This document shows, in pieces, positions 32,556 to 37,793 of a DNA stretch of 38,662 nucleotides. The translations under genes and the position numbers were made by a program. Position 1 is the first letter of the stretch, and every line of letters begins with the position of its first letter. The notes beneath the pieces were generated by a model. The model was not told where the DNA came from. It was given only the letters and a program-made list of their open reading frames with translations, and did not search any database. The stretch is from Candidatus Limnocylindrales bacterium (GTDB taxonomy: Bacteria > Moduliflexota > Moduliflexia > Moduliflexales > JAUQPW01): the NCBI GenBank assembly GCA_035559535.1, contig DATMBG010000055.1, positions 1 through 38,662 of the forward strand. The letters run 5' to 3'.

Positions 32556-32776
32556 GCCACAAGGTTGAGATTTCATGTGAGCTTGTTCATGGTTTTAAAC
32601 CTGTATTCCAGATTCCCTTTTTTACGTTTGAGATTGGGATAGAGGTTGAGGGTACTTGATCTGTGCTGTGCCTGTACCGATGGGTTCTTAAAACTCGATG
32701 TGTGCCTATTTCCAGGTTTAGCGGGTTATGACAACAACTAACCTTGCTGGCCGCTTACAGTAGAGAGGAGGAAATT

Positions 32777-34297
32777 ATGTGGACTCAGTCGGATTTAATA
32801 CCATCTGATCACTCCATGGATGGGAGTAATAAAAGAGTCTCAAAATCTCAAGGTCAAAGCTTTTTTCATCAAAAGGGTCCCTATGACAGGGATGAGTTCC
32901 TTGTAAAATCGAAGGGAAGAAAAAAGAAAAACCTTTTATCCCCTTATCTTCTCTATATTCCGGGGCTACTCCTTTACATTATGACCTGGTCTACCTGTGG
33001 TCTGGCTCAGGAGTCTAAGGAACGGGAGATCTCGCTATCTCCTACCTCACCCGGTCGAGAGACCCCCTTAGATCTTGCAGGACTTCCTAAAGAACCTGTG
33101 GGTATAAAGATCAATGGTTTCATCGTGGGATCCTTGAGTTATAATTCCCGTATTCAGATAGTTCCGGAATTTGCCGGTAGTGCTCCGGCTCTGGCCAATC
33201 CTGGAGCGACTAATTTTAGTTTCGACAAATTCGGCCTGGCCCTTTCCAGGACTTTTGCTTCCTGGCTTTCAGCCAGTGGAGCTATCGAGGTAGAAAGTCA
33301 CAGGAACCGACATGCCCATGGCTTCAACCCGGAGTTCGGCTGTCCGGAAGGTGGAACCAGTCCTTGTATTGAGAGATTCGGATCCGAGGAGCCCGAAATT
33401 GAAGTTGGGCTGGATAAATTTAATATTACCGGTATAGTCCCGGTTGGGAATGGGCTTTCCCTCTCCTTGGGAAGATTTGACGTTCCGTTCGGTATCGAAC
33501 GGCATGATGAACCCCTGTTGCTCACGGCTACCAACTCCGAGGTCTTCCGTTTCGGTCGCCCGCAAAAAGTAACGGGATTCTGGACGGCTTACCAAGTAAA
33601 TCCTAAAGTAAACTTCGATGTCTTCCTCGTGAACCGCTGGGAGTCTGAGACGACGGAGGATGACTTTAACGATAACAATAAAGGAAAAACCGTCGGAGGC
33701 CGCATTGGTTTCACCCCCTTGCCGACCACAGGCCTTTTAAACTTTGGCATCGGAGGTATCTATGGTCCCGAACAAGAAAATAACGATTCGAGTAAACGAT
33801 GGGTGATAGACCTTGACGCTACCTGGAATCCTATCTCCAAATTCCTTTTGACGGGGGAATTTGTCTTCGGAAGCGAATCAGATTTTGAAGCCCGACAAGT
33901 CGGCCAGCCTATCTTTCAGGCCCCAATACAGGGAGATGTAAGTTGGTTTGGATTTTATTTGCTGGGCCACTATGATGCCCGACCCTGGTTGGGTTTTTCC
34001 CTTCGTTATGGCTACTTTGATGATCAGGATGGGGCAAGAACCGGAATCCAGCAAAAGCTCCAATCCCTGACTTTTGCTCCCGTCATCCATCTCTCCCGAT
34101 TGATTCCAGATCTTCGTCCGACCGGTGCTACGTTTGCACGAACTCGTCATCCCATTGATTGGGTCGACTTGAAGTTTGAATACCGTTACAACCACTCCAA
34201 TCGACCTGCCTTCTCCGATGAAGAGCCAGGAGTAGATATTCTAGAAGCCGATAAAACAAGTCATCAATTTCAGTTCCAGGCGGTTGTCAACTTCTAA
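32777..34297 (+). CDS. Outer-membrane beta-barrel porin (OmpL-like, BBP2 type)
   Basis: A 506-aa protein. ATG 32777 is chosen for AGGAGG six bases upstream. The hydrophobic part of the signal (LLSPYLLYIPGLLLYIMTW) lies unusually far in, near residues 55-73, after a polar N-region. The mature part alternates amphipathic strands with acidic loops. Family-like blocks are KINGFIVGSLSYNS near the start, LGRFDVPFGIERHDEPLLL, RIGFTP, and a terminal aromatic Phe (VNF) as in outer-membrane barrels. Such porins let small solutes cross the outer membrane. It closes the His-rich/FMN-like series, 221 bp after copy B, and may serve the same substrate or metal; that is inference. Confidence 0.8.
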   Translation: MWTQSDLIPSDHSMDGSNKRVSKSQGQSFFHQKGPYDRDEFLVKSKGRKKKNLLSPYLLYIPGLLLYIMTWSTCGLAQESKEREISLSPTSPGRETPLDLAGLPKEPVGIKINGFIVGSLSYNSRIQIVPEFAGSAPALANPGATNFSFDKFGLALSRTFASWLSASGAIEVESHRNRHAHGFNPEFGCPEGGTSPCIERFGSEEPEIEVGLDKFNITGIVPVGNGLSLSLGRFDVPFGIERHDEPLLLTATNSEVFRFGRPQKVTGFWTAYQVNPKVNFDVFLVNRWESETTEDDFNDNNKGKTVGGRIGFTPLPTTGLLNFGIGGIYGPEQENNDSSKRWVIDLDATWNPISKFLLTGEFVFGSESDFEARQVGQPIFQAPIQGDVSWFGFYLLGHYDARPWLGFSLRYGYFDDQDGARTGIQQKLQSLTFAPVIHLSRLIPDLRPTGATFARTRHPIDWVDLKFEYRYNHSNRPAFSDEEPGVDILEADKTSHQFQFQAVVNF

Positions 34298-34602: not shown

Positions 34603-34625
34603 GACTCCCTCTTTATGAGGAGCAA

Positions 34626-35042
34626 ATGAAACTAAAAAGATTGTTCCCTATAGCCGGGATCCTATTTTTCGTACTGTCCTGTTGGGTTTCTACAATGGGA
34701 TATGCCGCCGATGAGGTTCCCAGAATAACAAAAGAAAAGCTTAAAGAAATGTTCGGTAACCCCGATTTGATTATCCTGGATGTCAGAACTGGTTCAAGTT
34801 GGGAAAGCAGCAGGGAAAAAATTAAAGGGGCGATCCGAGAAGACCCCAAAAGTGTAAACTCTTGGGCCGACAAATATCCTAAAGATAAAATTTTGGTTCT
34901 TTATTGTTCTTGACCTGATGAAGCTACCAGTGCCCGGGTGGCACGGGAACTCCTCCGTAAGGGATTTACCAGGGTTTATGCCTTGAAAGGTGGATGGAAT
35001 GAATGGGTAGAGGCTAAATTCCCAACAGAACCCAAAGATTAG
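34626..35042 (+). CDS. Secreted rhodanese-like sulfurtransferase, predicted selenoprotein (UGA at codon 96)
   Basis: A 138-residue single-domain rhodanese read through an in-frame TGA (34911-34913) to a TAG at 35040-35042. A signal peptide (residues 1-27) sends it to the periplasm. Domain marks are LIILDVRTGSSWESS, VLYCS-U-PDEATSARVA with the catalytic-loop Cys94 and selenocysteine 96, and VYALKGGWNEWVEAKFP after the UGA. Cys homologs that I recall read YCxCP here, so UGA replaces Cys exactly. A SECIS-like hairpin follows the UGA (34927-34946). Without readthrough, half the domain is lost. The alternative is a nonsense mutation, but every codon after the UGA is conserved and in frame. A good GAGGAG precedes the start. 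Rhodanese-related selenoproteins are known from bacterial metagenome surveys. Confidence 0.85.
34927..34946 (+). promoter_or_regulatory. Bacterial SECIS-like hairpin inside the rhodanese coding region
   Basis: GTGCC (34930-34934) and GGCAC (34940-34944) enclose the loop CGGGT. Two more C-G pairs form if A34929 bulges. The loop begins 21 nt after the UGA, inside the usual spacing of bacterial SECIS elements, and has G among its first two loop bases, as SelB binding requires. Confidence 0.7.
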
Positions 35043-35251
35043 GTATCTGATCCCCTAAAGATCAGGGATAGTTTTAGATACCTTAAAAGAATGAAAAAAA
35101 TAACTATTTATCCTTTACAAATGGAATTAGATTTGAGAATATAATTTGAAGTGTTAAAGGGTTGTAATCCAACATGGAAGCACAGCCTACTAGATGCCGG
35201 GGGTAAATTTCTAACTGGAAGGAAAGGTATCTAGGTGGTTTAGGAAGAGGT

Positions 35252-36568
35252 ATGGAAAGCAGAGTTACACGAAGAGAATTTTTAAAGAAAGTGGGGCGAG
35301 GTGGTTTTGGACTTTACCTGAGTACATTGCCCGTAAGTTTAATATCCTGTACCCAGGCTGAGAAAAAAACCTTTTCATCATTCCAGGAGGTTTATAGAAG
35401 TTCATCTAAAAACCTGTCTAAAACCGATTTAGAGTTACTTCGATATCCTTACCTTCAATGCCCTACCACTTCTTCGATGAAAATTGCCTGGAAAACAAAA
35501 AGTTCCTGTAAAGGTGAGATCCGATACGGACTGACACAAGATTTAGAACAGATTGCAAACGGTCTTTCACCTACAGAGTGCCATCTCGTGACGCTTCTAG
35601 ATCTTCAACCGGATACCCAGTACTATTATCAGATTTTTGGCGATGGAGCCCCCCTGACAGAAATGGAAACTTTCAAAACAGCCAAACCGTGTAGTTCTAA
35701 AAGTTTCTCCTTTATCGCATTTGGAGATTCCGGTAGTGGTAATACGGATCAATATCGGGTCGCAGAGGTCATGAAAAGTTTAAATTTTGACCTGGCTATT
35801 CTGACGGGAGATATTGTCTATCCCAATGGGGATACTGCCTACTATGAGTCTAACTACTTCCGACCCTATCGAGACCTGATAAAAAAGGTTCCCTTCTTTC
35901 CTTCACTGGGAAACCATGATCTGGATTCCAAAAACGGACAAGGTTACTTAGAGGCATTTGATGTTCCCGCTAATAATCCTCTGAATTCCAAACGATATTA
36001 TACCTTTAGATATGCCCATGCTCTGTTTATAGCCTTAGATAGTAATGAAGGGCTTTTATATAAACCGGATCAAATTCAAGGAAGTCCTCAATATAAGTGG
36101 CTGGTTCATGAACTTCAGAAGGCCGAGAACGACCCGGAGGTCAACTGGCGATTTGTCTTTTTTCACCATCCCCCTTATAGTGGAGGATACCACGGTCAGG
36201 GAGGTCAGAAAGAACGGCTGGCCCAGCTCAGGAAAACCCTGGTTCCAGTATTGGAGAAATACCAGGTGGATATGGTGTTTAATGGCCACGATCACCACTA
36301 TGAGAGATCTTATCCCATAAGGGACGGCAGTATAGAAAGTGAACCTGTTTCCGATACCCAGGGGATTGTCTATATTGTAACCGGTGGGGGGGGACGGGGA
36401 AATAATTTCTGGCGAAGCCGTCTAAAGAAAGGGCCCTGGTGTGCCTATATTGAAGATACTTTCCATGTAACCTATGTCGAGATTGATGGAAGCCTCCTCA
36501 CCCTTAAAGCCATTAATGATCGGGGAGAAGTTATAGATAAGGCTACGATTCAGAAATCCAGGATTTAA
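35252..36568 (+). CDS. Purple-acid-phosphatase-like metallophosphoesterase, Tat-exported lipoprotein
   Basis: A 438-aa exported phosphoesterase. A twin-arginine motif, TRREFLKK (6-13), and a lipobox, LISC with Cys33, predict Tat export and lipid anchoring. Residues about 64-145 form the fibronectin-like N-terminal domain of purple acid phosphatases. The dinuclear metal site is complete: GDSG (Asp159), GDIVY (Asp187), GNHD (Asn221, His222), HH at 305-306 and GHDHHYER (His346, His348). Such enzymes hydrolyse phosphomonoesters or phosphodiesters outside the cytoplasm; the substrate is unknown. GAAGAGGT lies just before the ATG. It is 210 bp after the rhodanese gene and 60 bp before the DsbA-like gene. 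Confidence 0.92.
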   Translation: MESRVTRREFLKKVGRGGFGLYLSTLPVSLISCTQAEKKTFSSFQEVYRSSSKNLSKTDLELLRYPYLQCPTTSSMKIAWKTKSSCKGEIRYGLTQDLEQIANGLSPTECHLVTLLDLQPDTQYYYQIFGDGAPLTEMETFKTAKPCSSKSFSFIAFGDSGSGNTDQYRVAEVMKSLNFDLAILTGDIVYPNGDTAYYESNYFRPYRDLIKKVPFFPSLGNHDLDSKNGQGYLEAFDVPANNPLNSKRYYTFRYAHALFIALDSNEGLLYKPDQIQGSPQYKWLVHELQKAENDPEVNWRFVFFHHPPYSGGYHGQGGQKERLAQLRKTLVPVLEKYQVDMVFNGHDHHYERSYPIRDGSIESEPVSDTQGIVYIVTGGGGRGNNFWRSRLKKGPWCAYIEDTFHVTYVEIDGSLLTLKAINDRGEVIDKATIQKSRI

Positions 36569-36628: not shown

Positions 36629-37387
36629 ATGGCCGACAACAACCACCGACATTTGACTAAAAGAGAACGTCGGGAATTGAGACGGGAGGAAAAAAAGCAA
36701 GCCAGATTACATGAACAAAAACAAGAACAACGGAAACGCCTACGCAGGCGGATTACCCTCTGGTTTTTTGTGTTGCTCGGCGTTGGCGGTGGGATCTTTG
36801 GAATGATCCAGTTGGCCAAAAATCCCTCTTCCTACAAAGCCTCTCCACCAACCTCCCTAGACTCAACTGCAGGTTGGACCAAAGGCAATAAAGATGCAAA
36901 GGTTACTCTGATCGAATACAGCGACTTTCAATGTCCTGCTTGCCGTAATAGCTATGCCTGGGTTAAAAGATTAACCCTGGAATTTAACGATAAAATGCAA
37001 TTTGTCTATCGCCATTTTCCCCTCAAGCAAATTCATCCCAACGCAGAATTGGCTGCACGCGCTGCCGAAGCCGCCGGCAGGCAGGGTAAGTTTTGGGAAA
37101 TGCATGACATGCTTTTTGAAAATCAGAGTAGTTGGGCAAATCGGTCCGATGCCGGGGAGATTTTTATAAAATATGCTCAATCCCTTAATCTCAGTGTGGA
37201 ACAGTTTAAAAATGATCTCAACTCCAGGGAAGTGCGAGAAAAGGTAGAAAACGATTATCAGCACAGTATTCAATCCGGTATAGACGCCACGCCAACTTTT
37301 TTTCTTAACGGAAAGAAAATTCAAAACCCCAGAAGCTATGAAGAGTTTAAAAACCTCATCCAGCAGGCCATTCAAAGTAATTCCTAA
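36629..37387 (+). CDS. Membrane-anchored DsbA-like thiol-disulfide oxidoreductase
   Basis: A 252-aa protein. The first 41 residues are an extremely basic, Arg/Lys/Glu/Gln-rich cytoplasmic helix. A membrane helix follows (about 42-61), then a DSBA-like thioredoxin domain in the periplasm with the active site CPAC (102-105) in SDFQCPACRNSY, and the cis-Pro loop DATPTFFLNG. The inserted helical domain (GRQGKFWEMHDMLFENQSSW in parts) is typical of the DsbA/BdbD group. It should oxidise or isomerise cysteines of exported proteins. It overlaps the VKOR gene by 50 bp, so it is almost certainly recharged by it. Confidence 0.92.
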   Translation: MADNNHRHLTKRERRELRREEKKQARLHEQKQEQRKRLRRRITLWFFVLLGVGGGIFGMIQLAKNPSSYKASPPTSLDSTAGWTKGNKDAKVTLIEYSDFQCPACRNSYAWVKRLTLEFNDKMQFVYRHFPLKQIHPNAELAARAAEAAGRQGKFWEMHDMLFENQSSWANRSDAGEIFIKYAQSLNLSVEQFKNDLNSREVREKVENDYQHSIQSGIDATPTFFLNGKKIQNPRSYEEFKNLIQQAIQSNS

Positions 37388-37793
37388 CTCCATTGTTCTT
37401 GCTTTTCTCATCGTCAGTCTGGTAGGTTTTTTAGATGCAACCTACCTGACTGCCAAACATTACCTGGGGGAAGTTCCCACCTGCTCCCTCCTAGAAGGTT
37501 GCGAAAAGGTCCTCACAAGCCCCTATGCGACCCTGGGAAGGGTCCCTGTAGCCCTGCCCGGAGCCTTGTATTATCTGGTTATTTTTCTCTCCCTGGTTGC
37601 TTACGTGGATACGCCACGAAGGAGTATCCTCCGTTTTACCGCCTATTTGACTTTCTTTGGCTTCCTGACTTCGCTGGGGTTTATCTATCTTCAACTTTTT
37701 GTTCTTAAGGCTGTTTGCCTCTACTGTATGGCTTCGGCAGCAAGTTCCATCGTTTTATTCGGTCTGGGTATTTATGTGTTGAAATGTCGGTAA
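37338..37793 (+). CDS. Vitamin K epoxide reductase (VKOR) family protein, quinone-linked disulfide generator
   Basis: A 151-aa four-helix membrane protein of the bacterial VKOR family, which does the job of DsbB in many phyla: it reoxidises a DsbA-like partner and passes electrons to quinone. The loop cysteines are Cys49 and Cys55 (PTCSLLEGCEKV), followed by the SPYATLGRVPVALPGALYY segment. The quinone-side pair is CLYC (127-130). All four key cysteines are present. ATG 37338 lies inside the preceding gene; a later start would cut the first helix. Translational coupling with the DsbA-like gene is likely. No separate thioredoxin fusion domain is present. Confidence 0.93.
   Translation: MKSLKTSSSRPFKVIPNSIVLAFLIVSLVGFLDATYLTAKHYLGEVPTCSLLEGCEKVLTSPYATLGRVPVALPGALYYLVIFLSLVAYVDTPRRSILRFTAYLTFFGFLTSLGFIYLQLFVLKAVCLYCMASAASSIVLFGLGIYVLKCR

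Follow-up and report, generated by a model that had tools for sequence, protein, structure and literature searches.

Our data indicate that the gene at positions 34626-35042 on the forward strand of a 38,662-nucleotide stretch of DNA (the window, as referred to here) encodes a rhodanese-like selenoprotein of 138 amino acids, with selenocysteine (Sec) at residue 96, and that it belongs to the NF041203 family of CxU rhodaneses. We give this sequence-based assignment a probability of approximately 0.95. The UGA at codon 96 replaces a Cys codon, a covarying SECIS hairpin follows it, and the genome encodes the complete Sec machinery; SelB and tRNA-Sec are therefore expected to decode this codon as Sec.

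Reading frame and in-frame TGA codon

The coding sequence starts with ATG at 34626, ends with TAG at 35040-35042 and comprises 138 codons; a probable ribosome-binding site read from the sequence (GAGGAG, 34617-34622, same strand) lies 3 nt ahead of the ATG. Translated with TGA as U, the protein reaches 182.4 bits on the NF041203 model ('rhodanese-related (seleno)protein'; curated cut-off 115) and 56.5 bits on the Pfam Rhodanese model PF00581 (cut-off 22.2), the latter over residues 36-129 (34731-35012). A preliminary description of this DNA had reported an in-frame TGA at codon 96 inside the active-site loop, and we found the codon (34911-34913), the loop text YCS-U-PDEATSARVA (YCSUPDEATS) and the downstream LKGGWNEW as described. 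The first chalcogen of the C-x-U loop, Cys94, is encoded by TGT at 34905-34907. It had also been proposed that gene callers truncate the gene; indeed, the standard code (table 11) yields a 95-aa ORF (34626-34913) as the sole product.

Residues 1-27 (34626-34706) form a probable Sec-type signal peptide, judged from a basic N-terminus, a hydrophobic stretch and a GYA-A end, so that the protein is probably exported. We considered a lipoprotein signal at Cys19 and dropped it because the same-genus ortholog has Ser at that position. Directly past the stop codon, positions 35040-35085 hold a long imperfect inverted repeat (AGGTATCTGATCCC...GGGATAGTTTTAGATACC) with no obvious T run.

We next consider the possibility that the TGA is a genuine stop codon or an assembly error and the gene truncated or broken, as the 95-aa annotation would have it and as would fit with TGA being an ordinary stop in the window, where it terminates 7 of the 21 long ORFs. 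The homologs argue against this. The same codon is TGA in the same-genus genome G001 (L009, the ortholog, and L027) and in five loci (L010-L014) from genomes labelled Deltaproteobacteria, Syntrophaceae and Desulfobacteraceae. We sampled 297 genomes from the phylum of the genome that carries L010 and found NF041203 matches over the curated cut-off of 115 in 45 of them; 60 of the 65 such matches contain TGA. Since the TGA recurs in the same-genus genome and in dozens of others, the preliminary concern that it might be a sequencing error is excluded. Furthermore, four homologs have a Cys codon (TGT or TGC) at this position: two acidobacterial loci with TGT (L015 and L016), which score below the NF041203 cut-off, and two matches above it from the 297-genome sample (L092 and L093). 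The proposal that Sec replaces the second Cys of the loop was thus borne out by Cys homologs aligning at codon 96.

The codons past the TGA are also conserved as protein. Over these 42 codons the window and L009 differ by 5 synonymous changes and 1 non-synonymous change, while 45% and 60% of positions differ in the flanking 100 bases on the two sides (ungapped comparison). Such a pattern despite diverged flanks is characteristic of translated DNA, and we read it from the sequences as purifying selection on the codons past the TGA. Together with the covarying hairpin described below, these observations refute the stop or assembly-error reading at the sequence level, and we regard it as highly improbable. 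Another small CxU rhodanese, likewise containing TGA, is present in the same-genus genome (L048, G001:C137:81298-81654; YCRUPNEGSSAR).

SECIS hairpin and selenocysteine machinery

A hairpin with its loop 21 nt past the UGA had been noted in the preliminary description. We located it at 34930-34944 on the forward strand as GTGCC-CGGGT-GGCAC, a 5-bp stem with the loop at 34935-34939. The 47 aligned homologs have a 5-bp stem in common (GTGCC/GGCAC in most), with the loop 21 nt downstream of the UGA, and the second loop nucleotide is always G. All five stem pairs have changed on both sides among these 47 sequences, with 99.6% of cells paired, and covariation therefore bears out the earlier suggestion of a SECIS element. 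None of 500 shuffles reached any of five covariation measures, and sliding the pairing partners abolished the signal. Furthermore, a hairpin of -4 kcal/mol or below is present in 98% of 48 Sec genes compared to 35% of synonymous-codon shuffles, and the mean hairpin energy of the 48 genes beats that of 200 of 200 synonymous-codon-shuffled sets.

The hairpin of the window taken alone is no more stable than its shuffles (fold z -0.42 to -0.87), so that a single sequence cannot establish it, and the minimum-energy fold of the window sequence favours a shifted register. A scan of the locus with Rfam returned no SECIS and no other convincing RNA family. Published rules for bacterial SECIS elements give a loop of 3-9 nt, a stem of 4-16 bp, a G within the first two loop positions and a distance of 16-37 nt from the UGA (PMC13188914), and the window hairpin agrees with them on stem, loop, guanosine and spacing.

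We asked whether the genome is equipped to decode UGA as Sec, a check the preliminary description had called for in naming selA, selB, selD and selC. The same assembly contains SelA (622 bits), SelB (408.6 bits), SelD (388.6 bits) and a tRNA-Sec (74.5 bits; anticodon TCA by ARAGORN). The SelD gene (L050, G000:C29:76668-77594) has its own in-frame TGA in the N-terminal loop (VECGGUAAKLSP), and because of this TGA SelD of this genome is probably also a selenoprotein. Across genomes, tRNA-Sec is about as frequent where the NF041203 family is present (36 of 40) as where it is absent (37 of 40); this comparison is uninformative because Sec use is near-universal in the phylum sampled.

The open frame alone would also fit a variant code that assigns TGA to another amino acid such as Trp. 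Since TGA terminates one third of the long ORFs counted above, a variant code is neither needed nor likely. The homologs have Cys, not Trp, at this position, and SelB, a tRNA-Sec with anticodon TCA and a conserved SECIS are all present, leaving this explanation a negligible probability.

Known relatives, UxU variants and fusions

Given its clear membership of NF041203, the protein is an additional member of a known selenoprotein family and not a new selenoprotein. A 2026 review (PMC13188914) credits the family to Zhang and Gladyshev 2005 and names it 'Rhodanese-like domain-containing protein form 3, CxU'; a second catalogue (PMC9312934) has it as 'COG0607 form 2, CxU', and both give TKB26178.1 as the representative. 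The window protein is like this family (rhodanese_LYCAU in NCBIfam) in its CxU motif, in its single Sec at the second chalcogen and in being a small single domain, and differs from it by ordinary divergence alone. Rhodanese-like forms 1, 2 and 4, known from bSECISearch and the Sargasso Sea survey, also have Sec in the active-site loop but carry their own motifs (UxxS / UxxG) without the CxU pair, and are kept as separate subfamilies (PMC9312934, PMC13188914). The TsoB rhodanese/DsbD fusion-like selenoprotein (NF045694) likewise has a rhodanese domain with Sec, but its motif is UxxxxU and a DsbD-like part is fused to it, and the window protein scores 29.9 against its cut-off of 805. GlpE/PspE-type thiosulfate sulfurtransferases (1gmx) have the fold and the DVR...GG.W landmarks in common with the window protein, yet possess one active-site Cys and no CxU pair; on the GlpE model the window protein scores 30 against a cut-off of 102.

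We found 11 loci in which both loop positions are TGA (UxU; e.g., YUTUPSEGTSA): L049, L068, L074, L076, L085, L098, L100, L102, L103, L104 and L111. On a tree, the distribution of the UxU form takes 9 changes to explain, of which well-supported branches force at least 5. The UxU loci contain a single hairpin, 21 nt from the second UGA and 27 nt from the first, and because both spacings fall within 16-37 nt, one SECIS could serve both UGAs. A DUF547 gene lies downstream at some UxU loci.

Fusions of the rhodanese domain were of two types. Five loci encode a CxU or UxU rhodanese that continues in frame into a C-terminal multihaem cytochrome c; three of them match Pfam Multi-haem_cyto (L090:298-1905, reverse strand; L098:2239-3846; L100:2537-3997) and two have the same layout by eye (L011:2950-4680 and L099). 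The cytochrome fusions are weakly similar to hydrazine dehydrogenase. An octahaem cytochrome selenoprotein annotated in GenBank (TIGR04315) is listed in a selenoprotein catalogue (PMC13188914) and could overlap with the haem fusions; TIGR04315 is absent from the NCBIfam matches of L090, L098 and L100. In the second type, a Na+/H+ exchanger (PF00999) carries a C-terminal CxU rhodanese with an in-frame TGA and the same hairpin, both in this genome (G000:C22:12164-12541, L046) and in the same-genus relative (G001:C72, L106:614-2389, reverse strand). The C22 match of this genome had been a candidate for TsoB, an identity that we rejected upon recognizing the exchanger fusion, and no TsoB above the cut-off was found. 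Neither the UxU form nor either fusion type was found in the two selenoprotein catalogues (PMC13188914, PMC9312934) or in a limited full-text search.

Active-site loop and proposed function

The AlphaFold2 model, built from an alignment of 49 homologs, has a mean pLDDT of 89.3, with the blocks past residue 30, in the rhodanese domain, at 94-98 compared to 58-64 over the putative signal peptide. Foldseek matched it with probability 1.00 to solved rhodaneses, the best being single-domain and tandem rhodaneses. We picture an exported protein that would consist of one rhodanese domain. In the homolog alignment, no Cys/Sec columns are invariant except Cys94 and residue 96. In rhodaneses, the aligned active-site Cys is the persulfide carrier, and one of Cys94 and Sec96 would occupy this site. 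Sequence alignments are split as to which: phmmer aligns Sec96, ungapped, with Cys65 of GlpE (1gmx) and with the Cys in each of the two 6mxv domains, and aligns Cys94 with the catalytic Cys of 1qxn and 6pfz across a 2-residue gap. Whichever alignment holds, the two residues form a vicinal pair in the loop. This suggests that they may cycle together, as a thiol/selenol in one state and a selenenylsulfide in the other. In such a scheme, a sulfane-sulfur, selenium or oxidant equivalent would be loaded onto the pair and set free by internal attack, and a periplasmic partner would supply the electrons.

As to function, a Cys/Sec centre for redox chemistry or chalcogen transfer in the periplasm seems most probable. 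We see an approximately even chance that it is a redox-type centre and not a classical thiosulfate:cyanide rhodanese, a view that draws on analogy and on the fusions. Pointers to a redox role are the replacement of the first Cys by Sec at the 11 UxU loci and the occurrence of multihaem cytochrome c fusions. More tentatively, CxU rhodaneses in general may be selenium redox centres and not sulfurtransferases, with a loop that switches repeatedly among CxC, CxU and UxU, possibly with a shared SECIS, and a domain that exchanges electrons with the c-type haems fused to it in some genomes.

Somewhat short of even odds is the alternative that the selenoprotein is a sulfur or selenium transferase passing on a persulfide or perselenide and not an oxidoreductase; the two roles can overlap. 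The rhodanese fold and the phmmer placement of Sec96 at Cys65 of GlpE and the Cys of 6mxv speak for transfer, but the invariant second Cys/Sec two residues off points to a resolving pair and the multihaem cytochrome fusions point to electron transfer. A BBP2 porin gene (32744-34297) upstream of the rhodanese offers a further point for transfer. In Geobacter, the porin ExtI is implicated in selenite/tellurite reduction and the rhodanese ExtH adjoins it (PMC5877670). However, ExtH is not an ortholog because it is a 49 kDa protein, and the neighbours of the window copy differ in the same-genus genome.

Indeed, the same-genus ortholog gene is 91% identical, and what aligns is limited to the gene with its immediate borders and a separate match of 45 bp. 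No matching flank was found within 3 kb of this ortholog, and no partner gene is kept beside the window copy. Since the setting differs, the neighbours are no guide to function. This bears on the suggestion in the preliminary description of a thiol-redox setting shared with nearby DsbA-like and VKOR genes. Both genes are present on the same strand as the rhodanese, a DsbA-like thioredoxin gene at 36629-37387 overlapping a VKOR gene at 37338-37793, and their position 1.6-2.7 kb downstream would allow joint periplasmic disulfide chemistry. Between them and the rhodanese, however, lie a calcineurin-like phosphoesterase gene (35252-36568) and a 209-bp gap, and the pair is not beside the same-genus ortholog. 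We therefore dropped an operon with DsbA/VKOR; the genes stand, the shared setting is not supported, and joint chemistry seems unlikely. Elsewhere in the family, an upstream same-strand membrane protein recurs at eight loci (L062, L065, L066, L067, L070, L077, L082 and L084); among the five tested, two match an amino-acid permease (L065 and L067) and three have no Pfam match. Neither this membrane protein nor a DUF547 gene lies beside the rhodanese of the window.

Overall, a gene that the standard code reduces to a 95-residue fragment is read here as a full-length selenoprotein, probably one of several in this genome, with SelD and the Sec-rhodanese fused to a Na+/H+ exchanger among the others. 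Although NF041203 is common across the sampled phylum (45 of 297 genomes), it stands only as 'predicted' in a selenoprotein catalogue. The UxU variants and the fusions to haem proteins give direct access to the question of what the CxU pair does.
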